From positions 1-32,470 of the forward strand of contig DYSU01000029.1 in NCBI GenBank assembly GCA_020726335.1: a stretch of 32,470 bases of DNA, in the 5' to 3' direction. The position numbers were made by a program, and so were the translations under genes. Shown one piece after another: positions 9,039 to 31,680 of the stretch; position 1 is the stretch's first letter, and each line of letters starts with the position of its first letter. The notes beneath the pieces are model-generated. The model saw nothing but the letters and a program-made list of their open reading frames with translations, did no database searches and was not told where the DNA came from. This DNA is from Thiomargarita sp. GTDB lineage: Bacteria; Pseudomonadota; Gammaproteobacteria; Beggiatoales; Beggiatoaceae.

Positions 9039-12000
9039 TCATTGACAAGCTTCACATTCTGGGTCGTCAAGCAAACATTCTTTGGCTGACAGAACAGGCG
9101 CGGGCGCGGTCAAAGGATGAATATTTTGCACCCCACTGCGTTCCACCCGCGTGGCGGCAACACTGCGCAAATAATACGTGGTTTTCAACCCGCGCATCCA
9201 CGCCAGTTTGTACAACGCATCCAGTTTTTTGCCTGAAGGCTCTTTGATATACAAATTTAACGACTGCGCTTGATCCAGCCATTTTTGCCGCCGTGAAGCC
9301 GCTTCAATCAACCAATCCGCATCAATTTCAAATGCAGTGGCATACAAGGCTTTCAGTTCAGCAGGAATACGCGCAATGGCTTGTACACTGCCGTCAAAAT
9401 ATTTCAAATCGTTGATCATGGTTTCATCCCACAAGCCTAACGCTTTCAAATCATTCACTAAATAGTGGTTGATCACCGCAAATTCGCCCGATAAATTGGA
9501 TTTGATAAATAAATTTTGATACGTGGGTTCAATCGATTGGGTGACACCGCAGATGTTTGAAATGGTGGCAGTCGGGGCAATCGCCATGCAATTGGAATTG
9601 CGCATACCGTGGGTTTGCACTTGCTGGCGCAAGCTGTCCCAATCCAGCCGCGCATCTAAATTGACCTGCAAATAATCAGGACGTTCATGGTGTAGTTTTT
9701 TCAAACTGTCCAATGGCAAAATCCCTTGTGACCACAACGACCCCGCAAAAGAGGGATACACGCCACGTTCTTTGGCCAAGTCACTGGAGCTTTTAATCGC
9801 ATAATAGCTGATGAGTTCCATGGATTTATCAGCAAATTCAGCCGCTTGTTCAGAAGCATAAGGAATGCGCTGTTGATACAAAGCCGCTTGAAAACCCATA
9901 AGCCCTAAACCCACAGGACGATGGCGCAAATTGGCGCGCTCCGCTTGTGGCACAGAATAATAATTGATGTCGATCACGTTATCCAACATCCGCAGGGCGG
10001 TTTTTATCGTTTGTGCCAACTTGGCTTCGTTCAGCCCATTTTCACTGGTGTGGGCGGGTAAATTGATGCTGGCCAAATTGCACACGGCAATTTCTTCTTC
10101 GGATGTGTTCAACGTAATTTCTGTACACAGATTACTGGAATGCACCACACCGACATGTTGTTGTGGCGAGCGGATGTTGCAAGGGTCTTTGAAGGTCAAC
10201 CATGGATGACCCGTTTCAAACAGCATGGTCAACATTTTGCGCCACAAAGCAATGGCAGGCATTTTTTTCGACAGCTTAATGTCGCCTTTCGCGGCAAGCC
10301 TTTCATAATAAAGGTAAATAATTAAAAATTGTTGGCCGTAAATATCATGTAAATGAAACACTTTCTTTGATTTGCGTTGAATGATTTGCCTGACTTTCAT
10401 GGCCTTCTGTCCTGTAAATAATGGCGTATCATCGTCTTCAGCCAAATCAGCGGCCAAAACAACCGCGCTGAGACCTTGGCGGATCACGGTCAACGGCATA
10501 TCGACAGGAATATCCACCGCTTTGCCTGTGTCATCGACAATGCTGATGACAACCAACTCACGGTTGACTTCATCGGGTGAGAACAGCGTCCATTCTCGGT
10601 CTTCATGCACCCGTCGCATGAATTCATCAGGAATCCACAGAGCGGTGTTCATATCATGGGTGCGGCGGCGTTCATCGCCTGTGCTTTTGCGCAATTCCAA
10701 AAATTCTTCAATGTCCAGATGCCACGTTTCCAAATAGGCACAACCTGAGCCTTTGCGACGGCCACCATTGTGTGCCAATGCGGACGTGGTCATGTAACTG
10801 GGGTCGCCATCGACTTTGAGATCGAAAATAAACGGCAGTGAAGGGATTTTTTGGCTGGATTTAAGCCGTGTAAACACACAACCCCGCCAGTGAATCCAGT
10901 TGTATTTGCTTAAGGGTTGGCAGTTTAGGCATTGTGCCAGCTCGGGAATGGCAGGAATGCGTAAATCATAGACTTTGCTGATGCCGTTGAATTGAATTTC
11001 AGTGCCGTCTGCTCGAACGCCTGTATGGGCATTGTCTCGTTCTCGGTATTGACCTGCAACGGGCGCACCCAAACGCAAACATTGATAGCGCACGCCTTCA
11101 ATTAAATATTCGGAGCTGTTAGTAAAATAAATTTCTTTGCCACGACTGATGCCGCCATCGGTTTCAATCAGCCCTTGTAATAAAGCCAACGTGTGTTGTT
11201 TGGGTAAATGTGAAAAACGCGGCGCAATGCGTTTTTGTTTGTTTTCATTATATAAATCATCATAACTGAAAGGCAAATGGCTACTTTCATTGCGGACAAA
11301 CTGGCCTGTGGTGCCATCGCGTAATAAACCCGAGGAATTTGCCCAATGCAGTTGCATATAATTATCACGTTTACCAACTTCCCAATAATGCACACCACGT
11401 TTTTCCAAATAGTTACGCACAAAAATCAAATGTTTATCGCTGCTCGGATTGCCTGAAACTCCCCATTCGTAGGTTTCATAAGTTTTGTTGTTCACGGTTT
11501 GCTGGCGTTTACAACAATGACCATCACCCAGCATAATGCCATATAAATGGGCATCATCTTCGTTAAAATCGGCCACAGGGATGATTTCTTGTGGAATCAC
11601 TTGCGCCACATAATCGCCAACTTCCAAATCGCCTGCTGCAACCCAATCAGGGTTGAGTTTGCCTTTTTCTAACCACAAACGCCTTGTTGATTGGGACTTT
11701 GGTACGCCTTTAATTGCCCAGAAAGGGTGACCGCTGGTGACTTTCACAGGTTCAATGCTGTGTTTGAAATTCAAGGCCACCATGTCGTCAAGCTGGTTGT
11801 AAGCCAGCTTTTGTTTGACTTCACGGTATTCACCGCGTTGACCTAAAACCAAATCACCGATTTCAATGTCTTTAATCGGTTTAACGCCTTGTGCGGTAAA
11901 CACTTTGGTGTCAGGGGAAAAACATTGGTTACAGGCCACCAAAGTATCGTTGGCAACTTTCAAAAAAGGCACAACCCCTTGTGATTTGCCGTTGGTGCCT

Positions 12001-13208
12001 TTGATATGCGCCCCCATGGCACGCACCGCTGTCCAATCGTTGCCCAAACCACCTGCGAATTTCGACAACAGTGCGTTGTCGCGGATGCCTGAAAAAATGC
12101 CGTTCAAATCATCGGGAATCGTGGTCAAATAACAGCTGGACAATTGTGAACGCAATGAACCCGCGTTAAATAACGTGGGGGTACTGCTCATCAGGCTGAA
12201 GGTTGATAAGGCATGATAAAATGAAAGGGTGTGCTGTTCTTTGTCGCTTTCATTCAAAGCCAAGCCCATGGCAATGCGCATAAAAAACGCCTGCGGCAAT
12301 TCAAAACGGGTCTTGCGATAATGGAGAAAATAGCGGTCATACAAAGTTTGCAAGCCCAAGTAACTGAATTGTAAATCTCTTTCTGGCACAATCGCTTGTG
12401 CCAGCACAGCCAAATCAAAGTGCAATAATTTAGGATTCAATAATTCATGGTCAACGCCTGTTTGCAAATAGCGTTTAAAATAATCGGGATAATAGCCCGC
12501 CATTTCTTGGGCAGTGGCGTTGGCTTGGGGGAATTGGACAAAAGGCAAGGCTTCAGAACGCAACCTGTCCAACAACAGCCGCGCAGCAACATGGCTGTAA
12601 TTGGGTTCTTTTTCAATCAAATGGCTGCTGCACATCACCAACGAACGGCTGACATCATCAATATGGATGCGGTCAAACATGGCCTTTTCGTTTTCAGCCA
12701 ACACGGTGGCAAAGCTGACATCGGCCAAACCTTCGCAGGCCTCATGAACCACGGTGTACAAGCGCGCTTGGTCTAAAAATTGTACCGAGCCATCGGCGCA
12801 CGTCACCCGCACAGGCGTTGGATTGGTGGCACGTTGTTTGGACTGTTGTTCACGATACAACACATACAGCCTAGCCACTTTTTGTCGCCCTGTACGCATC
12901 AGTTCAGTTTCCACTTGGTCTTGAATCTCTTCAATATGCACCGCGCCGTGCCGTTGCATTTTGGGCTTCAAATCGTCAATCACTGCCAGCGCGATTTTTT
13001 GAGCAAAATCATGAATCCGACGCGCCACTTGGCCGTGGCCGCCTTCGCTGGCCATAAAAGCCCTGTCCACGGCGATGATGATGCGATGGGGGTCAAATGC
13101 CACCCGTTCACCATTGCGACGAATCACATAAAATCTTTGAAAATGTTGAGGGTCAAGCTCAGGCCTTAATGGCAAGTTATCGCTGATGTCAAAAGTTGTG
13201 TCAGTCAT
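9039..13208 (-). CDS. nrdA: Ribonucleotide reductase class Ia large subunit, intein-bearing
   Basis: NrdA reduces ribonucleoside diphosphates to deoxy forms with the radical supplied by NrdB. Residue numbers here use ATG at 13208 (1389 residues). An ATP cone spans about 24-125, with a second cone-like region after it. Catalytic landmarks are Cys359 in SSCYLT, the NLCTE motif at 1026-1030, the radical-path tyrosines 1345-1346 in TTYYLR, and the C-terminal CEAC redox pair at 1385-1388. An intein occupies 429-814. A further insertion of about 69 residues lies at 882-950, between FSPDE and LHDIYG. Removing both leaves about 934 residues, close to the long NrdA type. ATG 13241 and TTG 13268 are alternative starts; none has a good Shine-Dalgarno. 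No nrdB lies in the window. Confidence 0.95.
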   Translation of the reverse strand: MTDTTFDISDNLPLRPELDPQHFQRFYVIRRNGERVAFDPHRIIIAVDRAFMASEGGHGQVARRIHDFAQKIALAVIDDLKPKMQRHGAVHIEEIQDQVETELMRTGRQKVARLYVLYREQQSKQRATNPTPVRVTCADGSVQFLDQARLYTVVHEACEGLADVSFATVLAENEKAMFDRIHIDDVSRSLVMCSSHLIEKEPNYSHVAARLLLDRLRSEALPFVQFPQANATAQEMAGYYPDYFKRYLQTGVDHELLNPKLLHFDLAVLAQAIVPERDLQFSYLGLQTLYDRYFLHYRKTRFELPQAFFMRIAMGLALNESDKEQHTLSFYHALSTFSLMSSTPTLFNAGSLRSQLSSCYLTTIPDDLNGIFSGIRDNALLSKFAGGLGNDWTAVRAMGAHIKGTNGKSQGVVPFLKVANDTLVACNQCFSPDTKVFTAQGVKPIKDIEIGDLVLGQRGEYREVKQKLAYNQLDDMVALNFKHSIEPVKVTSGHPFWAIKGVPKSQSTRRLWLEKGKLNPDWVAAGDLEVGDYVAQVIPQEIIPVADFNEDDAHLYGIMLGDGHCCKRQQTVNNKTYETYEWGVSGNPSSDKHLIFVRNYLEKRGVHYWEVGKRDNYMQLHWANSSGLLRDGTTGQFVRNESSHLPFSYDDLYNENKQKRIAPRFSHLPKQHTLALLQGLIETDGGISRGKEIYFTNSSEYLIEGVRYQCLRLGAPVAGQYRERDNAHTGVRADGTEIQFNGISKVYDLRIPAIPELAQCLNCQPLSKYNWIHWRGCVFTRLKSSQKIPSLPFIFDLKVDGDPSYMTTSALAHNGGRRKGSGCAYLETWHLDIEEFLELRKSTGDERRRTHDMNTALWIPDEFMRRVHEDREWTLFSPDEVNRELVVISIVDDTGKAVDIPVDMPLTVIRQGLSAVVLAADLAEDDDTPLFTGQKAMKVRQIIQRKSKKVFHLHDIYGQQFLIIYLYYERLAAKGDIKLSKKMPAIALWRKMLTMLFETGHPWLTFKDPCNIRSPQQHVGVVHSSNLCTEITLNTSEEEIAVCNLASINLPAHTSENGLNEAKLAQTIKTALRMLDNVIDINYYSVPQAERANLRHRPVGLGLMGFQAALYQQRIPYASEQAAEFADKSMELISYYAIKSSSDLAKERGVYPSFAGSLWSQGILPLDSLKKLHHERPDYLQVNLDARLDWDSLRQQVQTHGMRNSNCMAIAPTATISNICGVTQSIEPTYQNLFIKSNLSGEFAVINHYLVNDLKALGLWDETMINDLKYFDGSVQAIARIPAELKALYATAFEIDADWLIEAASRRQKWLDQAQSLNLYIKEPSGKKLDALYKLAWMRGLKTTYYLRSVAATRVERSGVQNIHPLTAPAPVLSAKECLLDDPECEACQ
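10359..10565 (-). other. Unexplained ~69-residue insertion within NrdA
   Basis: Most NrdA proteins pass directly from FSPDEVP to a LHD.YG segment. Here, after FSPDEV, about 69 residues intervene (NRELVVISIVDDTGKAVDIP through QRKSKKV) before FHLHDIYGQQF. The reading frame is open and codon use resembles the host gene. It lacks intein blocks: no Cys or Ser at the start and no His-Asn at the end. The residues just after it (FLIIYLYYE) are also more hydrophobic than the charged EF..Y..YE usual there. Boundaries are approximate and rest on recalled family sequences. Confidence 0.55.
10767..11924 (-). mobile_element. Intein with LAGLIDADG homing endonuclease in nrdA
   Basis: The 386-residue insert begins with Cys in CFSPDTKVFT and ends with His-Asn in ALAHN. 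Splicing blocks are visible: block A (C429), block B TSGHPFW with Thr491 and His494, block F around FIFDLKVDGDPSYM with Asp796, and block G with His813-Asn814. Two LAGLIDADG-type motifs, LYGIMLGDGH and LLQGLIETDGG, keep their catalytic Asp562 and Asp684, so the endonuclease looks intact. Exact removal rejoins CNQ to GGRRKG, matching the conserved CSQGG of E. coli NrdA, so the boundaries are firm. The odd point is Gly at the +1 position, where standard inteins need Cys, Ser or Thr. The segment looks richer in A and T than flanking nrdA. Confidence 0.93.
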
Positions 13209-13281
13209 GATTTTCAGTTTGTCAAAAATGCAATCGGACATCTTACTAAAGGGGCTGGATGGATTCAAATGTGATTTGCTT

Positions 13282-20525: not shown

Positions 20526-23096
20526 ATGCGTCTGATTTATTTTTGTTTTTTTATGTCGCTGAGCTTGTTAACCGCTTGCAATGGCGCAGGCCTAGACAGT
20601 TTGGGCGGCTTGAGTCTCAGCGGCACGTTGAGTGTTCCTGCCAACACCGCCATTGACAGCGATGTCAACAGCCAAGACAGCCAACCGATTGGCAACAACA
20701 GCGTCGAAACAGCGCAAATCATCAGAACCAACCCCGTGATATTAGGCGGCTACGCCAGTCAAGCCAACGCGGGTGCAGTGGGTGTGTTGACCCCCAACGG
20801 CGATGATCAGGATTTATTTCGCATTGATTTACAAACAGGCCAGACCATCCGTTTATTTGTCGCCAGCAACGACTTAGACCGCAACGATTTGGATTTATTA
20901 CTGCTCAATGACGCAGGCGAAGTCATTGATGCCTCCACCAACAGAAGTCACCTTGAAAGTTTATATGCGCCACAAGGTGGCCGCTATATTATTGAAGTAT
21001 TGGCACATCAAGGTGCGTCTAATTACGTCTTAAGCGTGGGTTATCAAGACAACACACACACACAACAAGGCTTGCGCTTAAGCAGTGATTTCATGCCCGA
21101 ACAAACCACCTTAAAATTCAAATCTGCCACCGATGATGCTGATTTCCAAGCTTATGATGCCGTCGCATTCGGTTGGGAAAAAATTGCCGATGGCGGTGAA
21201 CAGCGCAGTTTGTATCAACTCAATGCCCAAGGCAAACAAGCGTTGGCCGCAACCAGAAGTTTATCTTTCACCAACGACGAAATGGCCGCCAAATACCACA
21301 CATTAATGGCGATTAAACAATTGCAACAGCATGAAAACATTGACTATGCAGAACCCAACTTTATTTATCACGCTTTACGAACACCCAACGACAGCTTATA
21401 CCACTTGCAATGGCATTATCCGTTGATCCAACTGCCACAAGCGTGGGAAATCACCACAGGCACAGCCCAAGTCGTGGTCGCCGTATTGGACACAGGCATT
21501 TTAAGCAATCACCCTGATTTGCACTATAAAATTTACGATGGCTATGATTTTATTTCCAGTATCAGCATCGCCATGGACGGCGATGGCATAGACAACAATC
21601 CCTATGATCTGGGTAGTTCGCCCGATGCCCCCGGTGGCAGTAGTTTTCACGGCACCCATGTGGCAGGCACGATCGCCGCCGCCAGCAACAACAACACAGG
21701 CACAGCAGGCATCAGTTGGGGCAGTTTGGTGATGCCAATGCGCGTGTTGGGTAAAAACAGCGCGGGAACTGATTTTGACATCGAACAAGCCGTGCGTTAT
21801 GCCGCAGGTTTGAGCAATGCTTCGGGTAAAATACCCGCCCATCCTGCCGATGTCATCAACCTCAGCTTGGGTGGTGATGAAATTTCCAAAGGTTTGCGCA
21901 GTGCGATTGATGAAGCTTATAACAAAGGCATTGTGATTTTAGCCGCCGCAGGCAACAACGGCAACGCCACGGTGTCTTATCCTGCCGCATTGGACAACGT
22001 GGTGTCGGTGGCCGCCGTTGACATCAACCGCAAACGCGCCAGCTATTCCAATTATGGCGCAAGCATCGACATCGCCGCCCCAGGCGGTGCCAGCACCGCC
22101 GACCTCAACGGGGATGGCGCGCCCGATGGCATTATCAGCACCGTGGGCAATGACAGCAGTGGCCAAATTAAACTCAGCTATGCGTCATCCATCGGCACGT
22201 CCATGGCCACGCCGCACGTTGCAGGGGTTATCGCGTTGATGAAATCAGTTTATCCCTCATTGACGGCACAAGACTTTTTTGGCCTGTTGCGCGCAGGCGA
22301 ATTGACTGACGATTTAGGCCCTGTGGGCAAAGACGACAGCTTTGGCTATGGTTTAATCAACGCCCAAAAAGCCGTCAACGCGGTCAATGTATTGGCAGGC
22401 GGCAATGCGGTGGCCAACAGCCCTGCACAATTGATGGTCAGTTCGCGTACTTTAAATTTTGGCTTAAATTCCAGCAGTTTATCATTGAACGTCAGCAATG
22501 GCGGCGATGGCTTGTTGAGCGTGGAACGCATCACAGAAACGTCAGGCGGCGCGGTTAAAATCAGCGATGGCGGCTTAAATGCCCAACGCTTAGGCACCTA
22601 TTTTATCAGCGTTGACCGCGATCGCTTGGCGGCAGGTGCTTATGAAGCGACACTGAGCTTTATTTCCAATGTCAATACCGTGGATGTGCGTGTGGTTTGG
22701 CAAGTGGGGGTCAGTCAAAGTACGGGCAATGTTGGGCAACAATATGTTTTATTGGTTAACCCCGATACCATGGCCACTTTACAACAAGTCAGCGTTGCCG
22801 CCAACCAAGGCCAATACCGCTACCGTTTCGATGACGTGGCCGCAGGTCGGTATTTGGTCATCAGTGGCAGTGACAACGACAACAACGGCACGATCTGTGA
22901 TTTAGGCGAATCGTGCGGTGCATATTTGACTTTGGACAGCCCCAACCCCATTCAATTGGAGCAAAGTCGTTCAGATATTAGTTTTGATTTAAACTACAAC
23001 ACCAATTTCTTGGTCAAAACCAGCGCGGATTTAAACCAAGGCTTATATCAAATTTACCCTGTTTATCAACGGCTTAGGTTAAAATCGTTGTATTAG
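20526..23096 (+). CDS. S8 subtilisin-like serine protease lipoprotein
   Basis: An 856-residue exported protease. The lipobox LTAC places the lipidated cysteine at 18. A pre-peptidase-type beta domain (about 66-172, DQDLFRIDL) is followed by a prodomain-like region (about 195-285). The catalytic triad is Asp322 in VVAVLDTGI, His375 in FHGTHVAGT and Ser559 in GTSMATPHVAG; Asn477 in AAAGNNG is the oxyanion residue. The catalytic domain ends near 625. Two beta domains follow: about 640-730, Ig-like, and about 735-835, with a D-N-D-N-N-G calcium-like loop near 790. It begins 14 bases after the kinase gene, hinting at joint expression. It is convergent with the large exported gene 47 bases away. 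Confidence 0.93.
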   Translation: MRLIYFCFFMSLSLLTACNGAGLDSLGGLSLSGTLSVPANTAIDSDVNSQDSQPIGNNSVETAQIIRTNPVILGGYASQANAGAVGVLTPNGDDQDLFRIDLQTGQTIRLFVASNDLDRNDLDLLLLNDAGEVIDASTNRSHLESLYAPQGGRYIIEVLAHQGASNYVLSVGYQDNTHTQQGLRLSSDFMPEQTTLKFKSATDDADFQAYDAVAFGWEKIADGGEQRSLYQLNAQGKQALAATRSLSFTNDEMAAKYHTLMAIKQLQQHENIDYAEPNFIYHALRTPNDSLYHLQWHYPLIQLPQAWEITTGTAQVVVAVLDTGILSNHPDLHYKIYDGYDFISSISIAMDGDGIDNNPYDLGSSPDAPGGSSFHGTHVAGTIAAASNNNTGTAGISWGSLVMPMRVLGKNSAGTDFDIEQAVRYAAGLSNASGKIPAHPADVINLSLGGDEISKGLRSAIDEAYNKGIVILAAAGNNGNATVSYPAALDNVVSVAAVDINRKRASYSNYGASIDIAAPGGASTADLNGDGAPDGIISTVGNDSSGQIKLSYASSIGTSMATPHVAGVIALMKSVYPSLTAQDFFGLLRAGELTDDLGPVGKDDSFGYGLINAQKAVNAVNVLAGGNAVANSPAQLMVSSRTLNFGLNSSSLSLNVSNGGDGLLSVERITETSGGAVKISDGGLNAQRLGTYFISVDRDRLAAGAYEATLSFISNVNTVDVRVVWQVGVSQSTGNVGQQYVLLVNPDTMATLQQVSVAANQGQYRYRFDDVAAGRYLVISGSDNDNNGTICDLGESCGAYLTLDSPNPIQLEQSRSDISFDLNYNTNFLVKTSADLNQGLYQIYPVYQRLRLKSLY

Positions 23097-23143: not shown

Positions 23144-26100
23144 TTATTGAAACAACAGTTGTTGATAGCTTGAAGGGTATATCAACAACTTGTCTTTCAC
23201 CCCATCTTGATTAAAATCTTCGACATTCTTCACCTGTAATTGCGCGCTGTCGCTGTGGCGTTGTTCCAGCAACACATCCAACCGCCCGCTGTGGGTGATG
23301 CCCGCCAATGAAAAACGGATATTGCCTTTATTATCAATCTGTAAGCCCGTGGTCTGCGCCGCCAACATGTTTTTATCCCACAACGCAGGTGACAGCGTTT
23401 GCCGCCACAGCGCGTCTTCTTGCGACCAAGCCAATGAAAATTCAGGCAGTTGTTGTTCGCTGATATGCAAACCCGCAGTTGCCTCCGTCAATTGTTCGCT
23501 GGTCAAATTCGGTTGTAAAGTCGCCCAAAAACCGCGCCCCAAGGGCAACAACAGATTTTCAGCTTGCCAGCGCAACGCTTGACTAAAACCCAGTTGGCGC
23601 ACCGACACTTGCAAGGCGATGGGATTTTGCAATGCAGGCACGGCCAACACTTGCAAACCTGTGGCTGTGGTCAGCAATACGCTGTTATCTCCTTGAATTT
23701 CAATTCCTTGCGCTTCATCGCTGCGTTTCAAACTGACAGGCAATAACGCATAACGCTGTTGCTGAACATCCCATTGCAACCAACCTTCATCCGCGTTTTG
23801 TTCAACAGGCCAAAGCTGTTGCAGTTGGGTCAACACATCAAGCTGATTCAAGGCCAAGCGTGCATTCAAATCCACCGCTTTGCGGTTGTTAAACAGCTTT
23901 TTTGGTAAAATATTGAGCAATTCCAATTGTTTAGGTACGTCCGCCCAATCGTCAAACACCCCATCATAAAGCGTGATGGTATGCAACTGAGCGGGAAACG
24001 CCACGTTTTTACCGATGCGCAATTGATGCAATTCGGTATAGGGCAACAGCGTCACGTTGTCGATGCGCGCACCTGTTGCACCGTGAATCAAGCCACTGAG
24101 TTGACCGCCTGAAATTTGACTGTCGGCGGCAAGCTGGACATTGCTGATCACCCCTGATTGTGCATGGACTTTCCCAGCCAACAGCCCGCATTGCAAGCGC
24201 GTGCCGTTAAATTGAATATCGCGCAAACTGCCGTGGTTTTCCACATTGCCCGTATAAATGCCGCCCGTGATTTGCGCTTGTGCCGAAACGTTGACATTGT
24301 GCAAAACCGTGTTAGCGGTGATGAAAGTGTCATTGTCTAATAAGGTGCTTTCCACATTATTTTCATTAAAATCATCTGCATACAACACTTGTTGCCAGCC
24401 TTCGGGATAAATCAGCAGATAATCAGACACGCCGTCTTGGTTTTTATCTTCAATATGCCACATTTGCAAAGTGGCGGGCGGATTGGCCACCGCTGAAGCC
24501 TCTTTGGCCAAAAAACCGCGATAACGTTGGCCTTGAAGCAACACATCCAGCCGCCCTTGGTCTTCATAAAACACCTTGTCGGCCCATTGATGCAATTGAT
24601 TGACATTGGCGGGCGCGGCATACAACGTTTGTTGCCACAACACGCTTTGTTCATCTTCAAACACCAAATAAAACAACGGCATCAGCCCTTGTTGCGCACC
24701 GTAAATCCCCGCTGGGCGGTCGGTTTGTTGTGCTTGCAAGGCAGGGCGAATAAACCACGCCGCTTTTTCGTCCGTGTCTATGCGCAAACTGCCGTCACCG
24801 CGTTCAACAAACCCTGTCTTATCATATTGTTGTAAAATCCTGTGCAAGGCCAGCGGGGCTTGCAACGCGGCATGACCCGTTAAAATCAAATGTTCGCCGC
24901 TGTGTAATTCAAACCAACGACCCTCACGAATCATCACGGGGAAATCACAACTTTGATGGGTCAACAACGGCAAACGGCTGTTGCGCTGTAAACTGACAGG
25001 CCGCAATGCAAACCGCTGCTGACCGTTGCGCAACACCAACACCCCTGCACCCAATTGAAAATCTTGAAAAAATTGCAATCCCACCGCTTGATAAACGGGC
25101 GTTTGATTGAACTGCTCAACCACGCTGACACCCCCTAAAATCAAGTGAGCGGTCAAATCTGCCCACGGATAACCGCTGGGGTTGGGCGCGTCCACTTTCG
25201 TTCCCAAAGCCGCCAACAACGGCACTTGTTCAGGCACGGCTTCCATTGAAGTGAAGCGCACCCCCGCATTCAATTTTAATTGAGTGACATCAAAGGGATA
25301 GCGGATGTTATTGCCCAAAGTCACATCGCTCAACACACTGCCATTGAGAATCACCGCGTTTTCAATCAGCGCGTTGGGTGTGCGGGTGGCGGTTTGGCCA
25401 ACCAACCACCCTTTGATCTGATTATTGCCCGCCGACAAAGTTGCGCCTGCGGCAAAGGTCACATGCGTCAGCACCCGATTAAAGCCCGACACCGTGACAT
25501 CGCCTTGCAACCACACGTTGGTTAAATTTTGAGTAATATCATCGCCATAGACTCCCGTCATCCCACCCGTTGGCACTGGCACGGCAGGCGGCGGCACGGC
25601 AATGGGTTTTTCAGGCTGTCCAGTCGTTGCCGCGCCCAAGGTCTCCGCAGACAACACCCAGACATCGGCATCAGCGGTTAAATTGCCGCTGGCATCCTCC
25701 AACACCAGCCACACTTGATAACGACTGCCTGAAATCAAATCATTGACCACTTGTTTGACAGGCGCGTTGACATCGACGCTGAAATGGCCGCGCAAATGCG
25801 GTGCAAGCAAATTATTGGCTGCATCCAGCCCTTGCTTGATTTGATACGCGCTGGGTTTGGCCATGCCCGCAGGCAGAACGATAAAATAAACGAGGGCTTT
25901 TTCCACCGCCGCGACTTCCAGCGTCAATTGATGCAAAGCGATGTCGCGGAGGGTGGGTGGAAAATTCTCATACAACTGTGGCGGCGTGGTGTCTTTGGCC
26001 ACGCCACGGCCTTGAATTACAAAGGTATAGGGATTTTCTGTTGCATCATTGCTGGCAATGCTGACCGTGGCTTGCCGCACGCCCAATGCGCGGGGAATAA

Positions 26101-27139
26101 AACGAATTGCCATGCTGTGTTTTGCACCGACAGGCACAGGATTGAGCGGCAACGTGGTCAGGCTAAAATCAGCCGCCTGTTCACCGCTCAACGTCACCGC
26201 AGGCGAGCCGATTGTCAAGGGCATACCGCCTTGGTTATACAGCTCAAACACAAACTGCTTGCTTTGTGGCGTTTCGTCTGCCAAGGCCTGCACCACATCG
26301 CCAAAATCCGTGAAATCATCGCCGCTGGGCGTGGTGTCGTGCTGGGCAATGGTTTTGTTGTTACCCAACACGCTCAAATCAGTGGTCAACGCGCCAAACA
26401 CCCATGTGGTTTTATCCGCAATGCCCGCAAATTCATTGCCCGCATTGTCGCGCCACGCGCCCGTATCTATTTGTATATAATAGCTTTGATCGGCTTCCAG
26501 TAAAATCTGTGGCACAATTTTAAGCTGTGTTGTCGTTGCGCCCGAAACCTGCGCGCTGGTCAAAGCGAGGGTTTCCAAGGTTTGATTATCACGCAACCGT
26601 TTGATGATCAAAGATTTATTGATCCACGGCAACACAGGCTCGGCAAACTGCAATAATAAACCGCCTGCCAAATCCAACGCCACTTGGCGGGCATTATTTT
26701 TAGGTGTTAATTCAATGGGTTGAGGGGGTTGCGTGTCTTGCGCCGTGCCTGTGGTAAACCGCCACGCGGTTTTATCGCTGATGCCCGCATGGTCGCTGAA
26801 CGCACCTGCATCCAAAGTCAAATAATAGCCCGTGTTGGCTTGCAACAACGCGCCGTTTAATAAATCTAATGCAATCAATGCATTGCCGTTGTTTGTCACC
26901 TGTTGGGCGGTGACATCCAATATTTGCACTGTGCTGTCATCCAGCATTTTATGTAAGCGAATGTGCTTGCCCGCATGGGCTTGCACCGTTTGATCAAACA
27001 GCAAGGCAAAGCGGCTGTTCAACGCCACCGCGCCGCTGTCGTTGGCAGGCAGTTGGCGCACAATCGCAGGCGCAGCCAACAATGCGTTGCTCCAAAACCA
27101 AATCAATAAAAATAGAGCGTAAATTTTAATATTTTTCAT
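23144..27139 (-). CDS. Large exported multidomain protein with internal duplication
   Basis: A 1331-residue secreted or surface protein; function unknown. A signal peptide ends near LLAAPA (20-25). Two Big_5-type Ig domains follow (about 26-132 and 140-250, each ending DKT.W.F), then a choice-of-anchor D-like domain (252-380, with FIPRALGVRQATVSIASND), another beta domain (385-500) and a proline linker (508-525). The rest is two related modules (about 540-920 and 935-1331). Each starts with a beta-solenoid-like stretch rich in N-V-T-L repeats and ends with a DxNQDGVxDxLLIYP motif. No LPXTG, autotransporter barrel or obvious sorting tail is seen; the protein ends right after the second motif. 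Adhesin or cell-wall role is only a guess. Confidence 0.85.
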   Translation of the reverse strand: MKNIKIYALFLLIWFWSNALLAAPAIVRQLPANDSGAVALNSRFALLFDQTVQAHAGKHIRLHKMLDDSTVQILDVTAQQVTNNGNALIALDLLNGALLQANTGYYLTLDAGAFSDHAGISDKTAWRFTTGTAQDTQPPQPIELTPKNNARQVALDLAGGLLLQFAEPVLPWINKSLIIKRLRDNQTLETLALTSAQVSGATTTQLKIVPQILLEADQSYYIQIDTGAWRDNAGNEFAGIADKTTWVFGALTTDLSVLGNNKTIAQHDTTPSGDDFTDFGDVVQALADETPQSKQFVFELYNQGGMPLTIGSPAVTLSGEQAADFSLTTLPLNPVPVGAKHSMAIRFIPRALGVRQATVSIASNDATENPYTFVIQGRGVAKDTTPPQLYENFPPTLRDIALHQLTLEVAAVEKALVYFIVLPAGMAKPSAYQIKQGLDAANNLLAPHLRGHFSVDVNAPVKQVVNDLISGSRYQVWLVLEDASGNLTADADVWVLSAETLGAATTGQPEKPIAVPPPAVPVPTGGMTGVYGDDITQNLTNVWLQGDVTVSGFNRVLTHVTFAAGATLSAGNNQIKGWLVGQTATRTPNALIENAVILNGSVLSDVTLGNNIRYPFDVTQLKLNAGVRFTSMEAVPEQVPLLAALGTKVDAPNPSGYPWADLTAHLILGGVSVVEQFNQTPVYQAVGLQFFQDFQLGAGVLVLRNGQQRFALRPVSLQRNSRLPLLTHQSCDFPVMIREGRWFELHSGEHLILTGHAALQAPLALHRILQQYDKTGFVERGDGSLRIDTDEKAAWFIRPALQAQQTDRPAGIYGAQQGLMPLFYLVFEDEQSVLWQQTLYAAPANVNQLHQWADKVFYEDQGRLDVLLQGQRYRGFLAKEASAVANPPATLQMWHIEDKNQDGVSDYLLIYPEGWQQVLYADDFNENNVESTLLDNDTFITANTVLHNVNVSAQAQITGGIYTGNVENHGSLRDIQFNGTRLQCGLLAGKVHAQSGVISNVQLAADSQISGGQLSGLIHGATGARIDNVTLLPYTELHQLRIGKNVAFPAQLHTITLYDGVFDDWADVPKQLELLNILPKKLFNNRKAVDLNARLALNQLDVLTQLQQLWPVEQNADEGWLQWDVQQQRYALLPVSLKRSDEAQGIEIQGDNSVLLTTATGLQVLAVPALQNPIALQVSVRQLGFSQALRWQAENLLLPLGRGFWATLQPNLTSEQLTEATAGLHISEQQLPEFSLAWSQEDALWRQTLSPALWDKNMLAAQTTGLQIDNKGNIRFSLAGITHSGRLDVLLEQRHSDSAQLQVKNVEDFNQDGVKDKLLIYPSSYQQLLFQ
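23147..24337 (-). repeat. Internal module 2 of the large exported protein
   Basis: Residues about 935-1331. Matching landmarks are QQRYALLPVSLKRS, GRLDVLLEQRHS and VEDFNQDGVKDKLLIYPSS, in the same order and similar spacing as module 1. The D-x-N-x-D-G-x-x-D loop resembles calcium-binding loops of dockerin or thrombospondin type 3 repeats. Confidence 0.65.
24380..25522 (-). repeat. Internal module 1 of the large exported protein
   Basis: Residues about 540-920. It contains a beta-solenoid-like part, the phrase QQRFALRPVSLQRN, then GRLDVLLQGQRY and the terminal IEDKNQDGVSDYLLIYPEG. The order of these phrases is repeated in module 2, showing an ancient duplication. Limits are approximate. Confidence 0.65.
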
Positions 27140-27282: not shown

Positions 27283-27310
27283 GTATTGTTTAAACGATAG
27301 GAGAACTCTT

Positions 27311-28516
27311 ATGTGCGATAAAAAACGGCCTGATGTTCATCAGGTTAAAATTCCGATTGCATTTGGCATCGTTTTGGCCTTGATTGGCCAGAGTTTGCCG
27401 ACCAATGGTTTAGCCGCTGGTTGTGAAGGAATGATAACCAAGACTTATCTTGGTGGCAAAATAGATGAATACCTATTACCAACCGATCCCGCTGACACGA
27501 CGGGTTATAGCCTCAGTTATCCATTGACTGATTTTGATAGCACTGTTATAGACAGGCACATGGTTCATCGCTTTAGCAATTTGGCAATGGCAGGCTATTC
27601 AATTGCGGATGCGCGGTTTGAGTTTAAAGCCAAACCTCTTGCTACAACAGGTCCGCATAGTTCAGGCAATGATACGATTCGTCTACGGTTTGATTTTACT
27701 TCCGCTGTTTACTCCGCTTATTTTGGTTCGGGCAATAGTGGCAATGATTTATCAGCTGTTTTTGGTGCTGGTCAATGGGGAACGAATAATTCAACGCTCA
27801 CTCCCATGGTTGCCGCAGGTGGCATGGTGTTTAATAATGCCAATTTAACCAATTTCGGTTCGGTAGCATCTGCATTGTTATCAGGCTTGAACACCCATGG
27901 ACAAATATATTTTTATGTACAAGATGATACTGCAGTGGACTATGCTCAATTGACTTTGGATTATTGTCCTCTTAAAAAACCACCTGTGTTGACGGATGGT
28001 GGCAATCATTGGATGCTCACCAGCCATCAAGATGCCTCACCTGCACATGTGGAGTTGAACAGGCAAGACCTGTGTTTTAAATACGTGACCTCTTCAGGCA
28101 CACATCAAGTTTATCGTTGGTATTCAACGGTTTCCCCTAGCTGGCGTGGTTGGGCAAGGGTAGAAGGCGACCAAGTGTTTATGCACGGTGATTATGCTTT
28201 AGCCAACAGCAAAACCCCTCAACACACGGCTTTGCAATGGGAGGTTGCCAGTGAAATTGGTAATCAAAAACAACCTTCTACCAAAGGTTACGGCCATTGT
28301 GTGGATTGGGAAAACAACACCACCTATGGCAATACCAATATGTTTGCCAATGTTCGTTTGGAACGTACGGGCAAAACATGTCCAGAAGCTGTGGAACCCC
28401 CACCAGCCAATAAAACTTATGTTTGTACCCCAAAAAGAGAACAAATTAAAATTGATATTGATATTGATCCCGCCCCTGTAGAAAAAGAAATAAGTTCTAT
28501 AAGTTCTATTAAATGA
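27311..28516 (+). CDS. Exported two-domain protein of unknown function
   Basis: I do not recognise this 401-residue protein. An N-terminal signal-like segment (about 13-36, ending GLAAG) suggests export. The first domain (about 45-220) is rich in Ser, Thr, Gly and Asn and ends with YFYVQDDTAVDYAQLTLDY, a pattern of secreted jelly-roll-like anchor domains. The second (about 232-357) carries GWARVEGDQVFMHGD, QWEVAS, GHCVDWENN and RLERTGKTC, and is repeated in the next gene. A short tail with IDIDIDP and SSISSIK follows. A strong AGGAG (27299-27303) sits seven bases before the ATG. Its stop overlaps the region of the next gene's start; the two genes form one unit. Confidence 0.75.
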   Translation: MCDKKRPDVHQVKIPIAFGIVLALIGQSLPTNGLAAGCEGMITKTYLGGKIDEYLLPTDPADTTGYSLSYPLTDFDSTVIDRHMVHRFSNLAMAGYSIADARFEFKAKPLATTGPHSSGNDTIRLRFDFTSAVYSAYFGSGNSGNDLSAVFGAGQWGTNNSTLTPMVAAGGMVFNNANLTNFGSVASALLSGLNTHGQIYFYVQDDTAVDYAQLTLDYCPLKKPPVLTDGGNHWMLTSHQDASPAHVELNRQDLCFKYVTSSGTHQVYRWYSTVSPSWRGWARVEGDQVFMHGDYALANSKTPQHTALQWEVASEIGNQKQPSTKGYGHCVDWENNTTYGNTNMFANVRLERTGKTCPEAVEPPPANKTYVCTPKREQIKIDIDIDPAPVEKEISSISSIK

Positions 28517-28527
28517 AGGAGATGAAC

Positions 28528-29025
28528 ATGTTAACCACAACTGCAAAAAAAAGGACATTAAAACTTGGCGTAATAGTGCTGGGTATGGTTTCAACGTATG
28601 GCTGGGCGGCTCCGCCTTTGCCACCACATCCGCCTTATTTAGACAGCAATATCACTGATATACGAGAAGGGGAATTATGGAAAATGGAAGTTTTTATTGA
28701 TTCAAAACTGTCGCACCCTTTTCTGGGTCAATTAGAGACGATTTGTTTTGTCTATGATGGCTTGTATTCTCCACCCAATCCCAGCCAAGATAAATACAAA
28801 TGGTGTGATGTCGCATCTCCCAGTTTTGGTTGGGCAGGTGTTGCCACCAAAGAGGGCGACCAAGTGTTCATGCACAATGACCAAGGCAAGTTTTACAATG
28901 GTGCGCAATGGGAATTGACATCCAAAGACGAAGGCGCGGGTCATTGGCGGCTTTGGGAAAATAATTTTTTCTTTGATTTAAATGTCATTTTCACCCGCAT
29001 TGGCAAGCCTTGTCGTTGCCAATAA
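28528..29025 (+). CDS. Small exported protein sharing a domain with its neighbour
   Basis: A 165-residue protein of unknown function with a signal peptide (about 1-27, ending YGWAAP) and a proline-rich start to the mature part. Its body matches the second domain of the upstream protein: ICFVYD, KWCDVASPSFGWAGVATKEG, then DQVFMHND, GAQWELTS, GHWRLWENN and FTRIGKPC line up in order. The start is put at 28528 because AAGGAG (28516-28521) lies six bases before it; ATGs at 28513 and 28522 overlap that site. The gene is likely co-translated with its neighbour. It ends before a hairpin shared with convergent pyrB. Confidence 0.75.
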   Translation: MLTTTAKKRTLKLGVIVLGMVSTYGWAAPPLPPHPPYLDSNITDIREGELWKMEVFIDSKLSHPFLGQLETICFVYDGLYSPPNPSQDKYKWCDVASPSFGWAGVATKEGDQVFMHNDQGKFYNGAQWELTSKDEGAGHWRLWENNFFFDLNVIFTRIGKPCRCQ

Positions 29026-29046
29026 GCTGATCCAAAGCCTAACCAT

Positions 29047-29081
29047 TTATCTCAGCCGTGCCAACGCACAGGCTGGGATAA
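29047..29081. terminator. Hairpin between convergent genes
   Basis: TTATCTCAGCC (29047-29057) pairs with GGCTGGGATAA (29071-29081) in an 11-base stem with one wobble, and the loop contains a further GTGC/GCAC pairing. It lies between the small exported gene and pyrB, so it can serve both. No T-run follows on either strand, so termination is likely but not classic. Confidence 0.55.
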
Positions 29082-29093
29082 AAGAATCCCGCA

Positions 29094-30050
29094 CTATTGT
29101 TCATACAATCCCAAGATCATGGCCATCACCGCCATGCGCACGGCGATGCCGAAGCTGACTTGTTGCAAAATCACGGCACGCGGCGAATCAACCACACTGG
29201 ATGCGATTTCCACCCCGCGATTGATGGGGCCGGGGTGCATGACAATCGCATCTTTAGCCGCGTGTTCTAACGCTTTATGCGTTAATCCATAACAGCGGAA
29301 ATATTCACACTCACTGGGCAGCAGCGCGCTGGTCATGCGTTCATATTGCAGACGCAACATGATGACCACATCGACATTTTTTAAGCCCGCTGTCAAATCA
29401 TGATACCGTTTCACCCCCATTGATTCAATACCGACAGGGCTGAGGGTTTTGGGGCAGATCACGCGAATTTCTGCCACGCCCAACGTGCTGAGGGCGTAAA
29501 TTTGGGAACGCGCCACCCTTGAATGAAAAATATCGCCGACAATCGCCACTTTGAGTGGCACAAAATCGTGTTTGTAATGGCGAATGGTGTACATGTCCAA
29601 CATTGCTTGGGTGGGGTGTTCGTGTTGGCCATCGCCTGCATTGATCAAGCGGGTTTGTGGTGACAGGTGTTGAGCGATGAAATAGGCCGCGCCGCTTTGA
29701 TGGTGACGCACCACGAATAAATCGGCATACATCGCTTCTAAGTTGTGCAATAAATCGGTCAGCGATTCACCTTTTTTGTTGGATGAGGATTCCATATTAA
29801 AATTAACCACATCGGCAGACAAGCGTTTGGCCGCTAATTCAAATGTGGTGCGGGTGCGGGTGCTGGGTTCAAAAAACAGATTGAACACGGTTTTGCCGCG
29901 TAAAATGGGGACTTTTTGAATGGTATGGTCAACCGGGTTAATAAAAGTTTGCGCTGTGTCTAAAATTTTAAACAAAAGATGATGCGGTAAACCTTCAATG
30001 CCAATAAAATGTTTTAAGCGGCCATCAGCATCAAATTGGATATTCGGCAT
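29094..30050 (-). CDS. pyrB: Aspartate carbamoyltransferase catalytic subunit
   Basis: PyrB joins carbamoyl phosphate and aspartate in the first committed step of pyrimidine synthesis. The 318-residue product has the carbamoyl-phosphate loop [12 protein letters not shown] (residues 60-71), the SSNKKGES loop with Lys92/93, [14 protein letters not shown] at 143-156, and [11 protein letters not shown] near 271. The start HFIGIEGLP resembles the Pseudomonas-type enzyme, which usually partners a PyrC' pseudo-dihydroorotase encoded just downstream. Here neither pyrC' nor pyrI follows; a hairpin and an unrelated convergent gene do. A promoter candidate lies 36 bases upstream. Confidence 0.96.
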
Positions 30051-30274: not shown

Positions 30275-31084
30275 ATGCAAAAAAAACCGTTATTATTGAC
30301 TTTATTGGTCGGTAGCCTGTTGGTCAGTGCGTGTTCACACACACCCGTGCCTTTAGCTGAAAGCTATCCTTTCTCTAAACAACAACGGATGCAGGCGGTT
30401 CATCATTGGGATGTGTTGGCCGAGCATGTCGCCACCCGCATTCAAGCCAGTTTACCCAACCGCACCACGCCAGACCCTGTTGTACAACAAGCCATTCATA
30501 TTGAGGGCAATAACAGCGGCATGGGCAATCCGATGTCGGGCTTGGATGCGATGGATGCCGTTTCAGCCACCAATGCGTTGTACATCAACCCGCCCAAACG
30601 CGGCCAAGAAACCGATTTTGGTGTGGCATTTGGCCGCATGTTGCGCAACCAATTGGTGCGACGGGGTATTATGGTCACCACCAACCCCGATGGTGTCAAC
30701 ACTTTTTGCACGGCCAGCGCATCGTGCAAACCCATGGTGTTGGATTACGACATCCAAGTGGTGCATCATAAAGACCATGATGCCTCGTTATTGACCCCCG
30801 GCTTGTTCAGTGCCAGTTCGGTGGGCGTGTGGTTGATTGCCCAAATCGTCACCCAATGGCAAAACCCTGAATGGGCCGTGGCACCGATTGCCGTGGCTTT
30901 GGATTTAAACGCGGCGAAAAACCTGCGTTTTCCCGGCCAAACCAACACGGAAGTGGCCGTGACAACTTCCATCATGGATGGCGATTTGGTGGTTTATGGT
31001 GAAACCAATGTCTATTACATCAATGAAGGCGACGATGACCAGTATGAAAAAGGCACACAAACTTATCGAATGGTGAGCAAATAA
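30275..31084 (+). CDS. Putative lipoprotein of unknown function
   Basis: A 269-residue protein with a lipobox LVSAC, Cys20 being the lipidation site. Ser follows at +2, which predicts outer-membrane sorting by the E. coli rule. I do not recognise the body. It includes FGVAFGRMLRNQLVRRGIMV, similar in style to the segment FGRMIGEEVASRFAQSGYPV of the next protein, which suggests a distant FlgO-like relation. Other visible parts are a FCTASASC pair of cysteines, a hydrophobic stretch VGVWLIAQIV, and VYGETNVYYINEGDDDQY near the end. AGGGGG precedes the ATG. The stop overlaps the next start by one base. Confidence 0.8.
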   Translation: MQKKPLLLTLLVGSLLVSACSHTPVPLAESYPFSKQQRMQAVHHWDVLAEHVATRIQASLPNRTTPDPVVQQAIHIEGNNSGMGNPMSGLDAMDAVSATNALYINPPKRGQETDFGVAFGRMLRNQLVRRGIMVTTNPDGVNTFCTASASCKPMVLDYDIQVVHHKDHDASLLTPGLFSASSVGVWLIAQIVTQWQNPEWAVAPIAVALDLNAAKNLRFPGQTNTEVAVTTSIMDGDLVVYGETNVYYINEGDDDQYEKGTQTYRMVSK

Positions 31085-31680
31085 TGAAAACAACCCGCTT
31101 AATCCTGCTTTTCACCCTTTTTTTAACCGCCTGCGCCGCAGGGCCTTCAGCCCAAAAAGAACCCAATAAACAAGCTGTTGGTCCTGATGATGAAGAATTG
31201 CACCTCATCAAAGCCAGCTATGAAGCGGTTGATACCGTTATCGCCCAAATTGAACGCAGTCATTTAAAATACGATTTGCAAAAAACCAAACCGATCATGG
31301 TGGCCAGTTTTGTTGACATTGATTATGTGCAAAATTCTTCCACTTTTGGCCGTATGATCGGTGAAGAAGTGGCTTCACGCTTTGCCCAAAGCGGTTATCC
31401 TGTGATTGAGCTGAAAATGCGCCCCGAAACGGTCGTGATTTATGAAGAACTCAACAGCCATGCCACAGGGGAAAAAATCTTGTCGCGCAATTTACAAAAC
31501 TTGACATTTGAACACGATGCACAAGCGGTGGTGGTTGGCACTTACGCCCCTGCTAAAAACCATGTTTATGTCACGATGAAAGTCATTCGCGCCAAAGACG
31601 GCATCATCATATATTCGCATGATTACCGCTTGCCCATGGATGCCGATACCAAAAGCTTGTTACGCAGTAAACGCAGATAA
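31084..31680 (+). CDS. FlgO-family lipoprotein
   Basis: A 198-residue lipoprotein with lipobox FLTAC (Cys17). The mature part follows the FlgO domain pattern: MVASFVDIDYVQNSSTFGRM, then EEVASRFAQSGYPVIELKMR, a stretch with QAVVVGTYAPAKNHVYV, and MKVIRAKDGIIIYSHDYRLP. FlgO in Vibrio is an outer-membrane protein linked to flagella, but related proteins occur away from flagellar genes, and no flagellar gene is in this window. It lies directly between another lipoprotein and lspA, two bases from the latter, which suggests an envelope role. Function uncertain. Confidence 0.82.
   Translation: MKTTRLILLFTLFLTACAAGPSAQKEPNKQAVGPDDEELHLIKASYEAVDTVIAQIERSHLKYDLQKTKPIMVASFVDIDYVQNSSTFGRMIGEEVASRFAQSGYPVIELKMRPETVVIYEELNSHATGEKILSRNLQNLTFEHDAQAVVVGTYAPAKNHVYVTMKVIRAKDGIIIYSHDYRLPMDADTKSLLRSKRR

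Follow-up and report, generated by a model that had tools for sequence, protein, structure and literature searches.

An unnamed family of predicted exported barrel proteins, two of which, one canonical and one diverged, stand side by side in a Thiomargarita genome

Two adjacent genes of Thiomargarita sp., analysed here within a stretch of 32,470 nucleotides (the window), share a small protein domain that is nameless in four profile libraries, Pfam, NCBIfam, PHROGs and PADLOC. We take it as an even bet (a probability of roughly 0.5) that this domain defines a family of exported ligand-binding barrels of the avidin/calycin type, and that the product of the second gene, P2, is a diverged partner copy of the product of the first, P1. 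Fold and export are predicted. For a small exported barrel in which certain aromatic and polar residues are conserved, ligand binding would be the simplest interpretation; the barrel may hold a small molecule or a sugar. Barrels of this kind are a common fold, and no long-standing question depends as yet on the family. Its value lies in a confident fold prediction, in a conserved pair of cysteines and in a set of conserved residues that can be mutated, together with a natural comparison, as a copy with the full site and a copy with a reduced one stand next to each other.

The genome (2.1 Mb, 97% complete) belongs to the family of Candidatus Marithrix, an organism that NCBI files under Thiotrichaceae. 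Both open reading frames are on the forward strand, where the earlier note had placed them. P1 (27311..28516) is a protein of 401 residues made of a signal peptide region (aa 1-37, 27311..27421), an unnamed N-terminal domain (aa 38-219, 27422..27967), the barrel domain (aa 232-357, 28004..28381) and a short tail, while P2 (28513..29025) would count 170 residues from its first ATG and has its barrel domain at aa 53-167 (28669..29013). Both are probably exported, a prediction that follows from signal peptides judged by eye. An AGGAG motif (27299..27303) stands 7 nt upstream of the ATG of P1, and an AAGGAG motif (28516..28521) 6 nt upstream of a later ATG of P2, at 28528. Because this motif is correctly spaced for ATG 28528, P2 probably starts there, 11 nt past the P1 stop codon, and not at ATG 28513; it would then have 165 residues, and the 4-nt overlap of the two frames is probably not used. 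That the two proteins are translated as a unit, as had been proposed, stays plausible, but not by way of this overlap. The two ribosome-binding sites had also been described as strong and unlike those of most neighbours. In a survey of 25 starts of 24 genes (P2 being entered with two starts), which took mechanically the first start codon of each open reading frame, the AAGGAG of P2 was the longest match, with 6 bases, and AGGAG itself was found in front of P1 only; in length, however, the 5 bases of P1 were equalled at three other starts (AGGTG, AAGGA and GGTGA). Downstream of P2, between it and a convergent carbamoyltransferase gene, lies a terminator-like hairpin of 37 nt (29046..29082, assigned to neither strand), and the region 29020-29110 folds with -26.8 kcal/mol and a z of -4.75. 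A simple promoter scan returned 5 sites for 4.4 expected from shuffles, hence nothing above shuffles, and the GC content of the pair, about 43%, is within the 38-54% of the window. Divergent from P1, on the reverse strand (23144-27139), a gene codes for a protein of 1331 residues in which Pfam recognizes only Big_5 Ig-like domains, in two stretches.

The domain shared by P1 and P2 is real, and the two copies are homologous. Aligned by BLASTP, residues 231-357 of P1 and 53-167 of P2 have 31% identity (E 1e-12), bearing out the list of shared motifs from which the pair had been recognized. A hidden Markov model built from the 14 relatives that lie outside the window's family retrieves P1 with 136.8 bits (E 3e-41) and P2 with 64.1 bits (E 5.7e-19), where the best of 1000 shuffled sequences, 500 per protein, reached 8.1 bits. 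The earlier note knew of no named family with this pattern, and the searches agree: Pfam, NCBIfam and PHROGs run over 22 members gave no significant match to the barrel domain, nor did PADLOC run over three proteins, and among PDB sequences no relative of solved structure turned up. None of the libraries searched places the domain in a known enzyme or binding family with an explained function, and a literature search at the level of titles and the openings of abstracts returned nothing on it. In the Pfam scan of the 22 members (limit E 10, HMMER filters dropping most hits above 0.1), the matches below threshold concerned one or two members each and were taken as chance: zf-Paramyx-P (0.043), ToxA (0.12), DUF1328 (0.21), LppM (0.22) and Dyp_perox_N (0.29). 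From the scans with the other libraries, SdrC at 0.014 in two members and two PHROGs of unknown function (0.024 and 0.057) were set aside in the same way. Viral contigs, plasmids and phages yielded no relative of the barrel domain, and viral contigs and plasmids none of the P1 N-terminal domain, leaving a viral or plasmid origin without backing; a structural search among viral proteins gave a single match below 0.001, an uncharacterised phage protein with TM-scores of 0.31/0.36.

The family is rare and patchy. It was met in 5 of the 42 genomes of the window's family, the window's own included, in 3 of 369 genomes sampled from the class (2 of 368 if the window's own is left aside); among 398 sampled from the phylum, the window's own was the single carrier. 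A locus scan derived from alignment A2 returned 97 stretches that fit its pattern, among which 17 loci in named genomes encoded a relative; as the scan required one exact short pattern, this number is a lower bound. Three of these loci belong to the window's family (GMC7 and two Marithrix genomes). The 14 others come from Bowmanella, Sessilibacter, Exilibacterium, Zooshikella (two loci), a single Thiodiazotropha (two loci), a Ctena symbiont, three metagenome-assembled genomes identified in their titles no further than as Gammaproteobacteria, two Nitrospirota and one Acidobacterium. One further locus from the class sample (L052, genome G168) had no frame with the motif sought and entered no tree or alignment, and the protein of L051 (genome G121) is identical to that of L038. 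Outside the window's family all 14 members consist of the barrel domain alone, in proteins of 186-211 residues (their starts being chosen by hand) with a signal-like start as judged by eye, and the DNA analysed around each of these loci has a single copy. The usual form would be one small exported protein. All 14 have exactly two cysteines after residue 22. Beyond the barrel, eight of them have the pattern G.....P.G (for example L026, L029, L030, L031 and L034), in five cases extended to P.D..G.....P.G. P2 terminates directly past the barrel. The proline-rich start of P2, which had also been remarked on, is shared by other members: the pattern PPHxPxL is present in 10 of 22 rows, P2 included, with near variants in others.

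Eleven residues (in P2 numbering) are invariant over the 21 rows of alignment A4: W56, D63, C78, W97, E114, D116, Q117, H144, W148, N157 and R162. H68 is kept in 20 of these rows, H92 and H121 in 18 each, and H128 in 17. The second cysteine, C167, is found in 20 of the 21, the exception being P1, where A4 is shifted; alignment A5 places Cys357 of P1 in register and makes this position invariant. Along the strands, the conserved residues do not clearly gather on one face.

The two proteins had been put forward as a secreted pair. Pairing is not the rule for this family, and homologues do not always come in pairs: besides the 14 loci outside, two of the five carriers inside the window's family (GMC7 and genome G026) have a single copy. 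Tandem copies occur in the window genome, which has just two, and in two Candidatus Marithrix genomes, BB16 and Canyon 246, and they follow the same order in all three. In a tree of 19 rows, from which L021, L036, L038 and L051 were omitted, the P1 domain groups with the first (a) copy of both Marithrix genomes (support 77/80) and with that of BB16 in particular (99/98), and P2 groups with both second (b) copies and with GMC7 (85/85). Constraining P1 and P2 to be sisters costs 14.9 log units and is disfavoured (p-AU 0.032). The 23-row tree has the same split (76/91), with the long-branched copy of G026 grouping with P1; this copy (L021) is part of alignments A1-A3 and of the first tree, and absent from A4. 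The pair is probably the outcome of an old tandem duplication; long branches leave this with only moderate support, and the age of the pair is supported, short of proof. The two types also differ in residues. All 17 canonical-type rows of A4, P1 among them, have both Q75 and H128, and the four P2-type rows have neither; two of these four have also lost H92, and H121 is lost in three of the 21 rows. The G026 copy, outside this count, seems by eye to be devoid of Q75. The pair reads as a lineage-specific variant, in which a canonical copy would go with a diverged one. Canyon 246 has two further pieces, a-type by eye, that are cut within the domain by contig ends, and as one of them has the P1 N-terminal domain in front, the architecture of P1 is not unique to the window. 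These pieces (L049 and L050, at the ends of contigs C29 and C18) are nearly identical over the barrel domain and both stop at one and the same part of it, which suggests that the assembly was interrupted by copies of recent origin or by gene conversion.

Structure prediction with AlphaFold2 gave for P1 and P2 alike an antiparallel barrel of eight strands, with 10-residue means of pLDDT of 67-96 over the domain in P1 and 76-93 in P2, the whole P2 model having a mean of 78.3. High structural matches of both models include 8ah9 (for P1 Z 12.1, rmsd 2.2, 106 residues aligned; for P2 Z 11.9, rmsd 2.8, 105 aligned), together for P2 with afifavidin 6hds (Z 10.5, rmsd 2.4, 96 aligned) and the amine dehydrogenase 1jmx (Z 10.5, rmsd 3.3, 102 aligned), and for P1 with 1jmx (Z 10.6, rmsd 2.8, 100 aligned) and Cap15 7n34 (Z 9.6, rmsd 3.6, 101 aligned). 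Designed barrels, avidins, the amine dehydrogenase barrel, Cap15, the exclusion domain of DPPI and the linkers of annelid haemoglobin all lie at Z of about 9-12, in a comparison where Z below 8 is common and where a shared fold is no proof of function. Outer-membrane barrels were matched too, OmpA at Z 9.0-9.4 by P2 and PagL at Z 9.5 by P1; because the top matches include designed and outer-membrane barrels, the fold is little guide to function or to the location of a site. Avidins are exported proteins, as P1 and P2 are predicted to be, and many of them (family PF01382) match at Z of about 9-10.5 the predicted up-and-down barrel of some 115 residues. The conserved motifs of the present family differ from theirs, however: the PF01382 profile matched none of the 22 members (within the limit of E 10 and with filters that drop most hits above 0.1), and homology by sequence was set aside on an hhalign probability of 0.39% against five avidin rows. 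Calycins (lipocalins, fatty-acid-binding proteins and nitrobindin) hold their ligand in an antiparallel meander barrel. Foldseek lists entries of all three kinds among its weak matches (best E 7.8e-4 for P2 and 9.9e-3 for P1), but with E from 2.2e-3 (the FABP-like Ycf58) to 0.25 and low TM-scores, and the six Pfam families that the scan of the 22 members listed include no lipocalin, FABP or nitrobindin profile. The quinohemoprotein amine dehydrogenase barrel (1jmx, 1jju) is a natural barrel that matches both models at Z 9.5-10.6; it is, unlike ours, part of a large enzyme, and identity over the aligned part is 9-17%.

We can picture the domain as a closed barrel of eight antiparallel strands in up-and-down order, avidin- or calycin-like and probably tied together by one disulfide between C78 and C167 (P2 numbering). 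The ligand would be held by W56, D63, H68, W97, E114, D116, Q117, H144, W148, N157 and R162, to which most members would add Q75, H92, H121 and H128. In the window's lineage the duplication would have left a canonical-type P1, which binds, and a P2 deprived of Q75 and H128, which might bind something else or assist. The same residues invite another view, namely that the polar residues kept throughout (D, H, E, Q, N, R) form the catalytic site of an enzyme, with P2 as its inactive partner. The constancy of D63, E114, D116, Q117, H144, N157 and R162, and nearly so of H68, agrees with this, as does the clean partition of Q75 and H128 between the two types, which is what pairs of enzyme and pseudoenzyme display; the spirocyclases OssO and OlmO even rank 3rd, 5th and 6th in the Foldseek list of P2. 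Yet the spirocyclases match only weakly, at E 2.4e-3 to 3.6e-3 and rmsd 12-14, and no operon partner points to a pathway, so that we hold an enzyme to be rather unlikely. A broader proposal, that a nearly invariant site makes this exported family an enzyme or cofactor binder spread among unrelated bacteria by gene transfer, and that in the Marithrix lineage P1 and P2 form a hetero-oligomer of an active and an inactive subunit, the active one being tethered in the window genome through a second new domain, seems to us doubtful to a similar degree. Binding of haem or of another cofactor through the conserved histidines, in the manner of nitrobindin or of secreted haemophores, would make sense of the retention of H144, H68, H92, H121 and H128 in most rows, and nitrobindin and a haemophore do appear among the weak Foldseek matches of P1; at E 0.04-0.2, and with H128 missing from every P2-type row, H92 from half of them and H121 from three rows, this has to be counted as improbable.

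Peptidases enter the discussion in two ways, as targets and as relatives. Among the inhibitors of peptidases or lysozyme there are small periplasmic proteins that consist of one exported barrel held by a disulfide, and the domain might be another of this kind. A subtilase gene is present in the window (20526-23096), a C25 peptidase gene lies close to the Nitrospirota member L040, an M19 dipeptidase gene comes directly after the Exilibacterium member L031, and another C25 peptidase gene is found on the Marithrix contig that bears the cut P1-like protein. It is because of these genes, of different families and near few members, that inhibition is kept in play. At the other scanned loci the neighbours are of other kinds, however, and inhibitors are often variable in sequence, where this domain retains many invariant residues; the six Pfam families on the list of the 22 members include no Inh-type protease inhibitor, and we find this reading hard to credit. 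Over the neighbourhoods scanned (19 flanking genes with Pfam, others by eye) no recurring partner gene was seen, except between close relatives (L035 with L036, L037 with L038). In two gammaproteobacterial metagenome-assembled genomes (L037, L038) the gene sits, by eye, between glmU-like and pseudouridine synthase-like genes, and the two Zooshikella loci likewise have a neighbourhood in common. Distant kinship with the glutamic peptidases (eqolisins, Peptidase_A4, MEROPS G1) was considered on account of a local similarity of 34 positions around the EGD hairpin: among PDB sequences scytalidopepsin B comes first, at E 0.23 and along 34 positions of the profile, Peptidase_A4 is matched at E 0.086, and a non-significant profile-profile alignment falls just before the scytalidopepsin B stretch, in roughly the same register. 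None of this is significant: one member of 22 is concerned at E up to 10 (with filters that drop most hits above 0.1), the profile-profile probability is 0.18%, with two peptidase rows only, and a plasmid search for further glutamic peptidase sequences found none. Eqolisins are two-sheet sandwiches, against the one eight-stranded barrel predicted here, and they are absent from the best 50 structural matches of each list, an absence that does not amount to exclusion. The 34-position alignment, moreover, covers neither of the positions that we take to be the catalytic Gln and Glu. This homology is unsupported, and we regard it as very improbable.

To return to P1 as a putative ligand-binding barrel, it appears to have gained its second domain at the N-terminus, which may anchor the barrel or present it. 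That P1 had an extra N-terminal domain was correctly foreseen; over aa 38-219 it proved to be a second unnamed one, with no significant match in Pfam or among PDB sequences, a BcsB match at 0.09-0.18 being taken as chance. It recurs within two Marithrix proteins of 774 and 779 residues, the former with Pfam DUF642 and CARDB above cut-off and nothing over the part in question, and in a Marithrix protein of P1 architecture truncated by a contig end. Carriers amount to 3 of 42 genomes of the family and, in the class, to 1 of 229 sampled genomes, the window's own. Its predicted model is unusable, because nearly all residues have a pLDDT below 50. The motif LAAGC at the start of P1 might evoke a lipoprotein. 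This was set aside, as Cys38 aligns with an invariant cysteine of the Marithrix N-terminal domains, and comparison of these sequences makes a disulfide partner more likely than a lipobox.

Elsewhere in the window, the gene of a large ribonucleotide reductase (9039-13268, reverse strand) carries an intein-like insert, with matches to Hint and LAGLIDADG, that separates its all-alpha domain from its barrel domain. Beyond the terminator-like hairpin, at 30275-31680, two successive genes have products that by eye are probably exported and lipoprotein-like, one of them without a Pfam match and the other FlgO-like.
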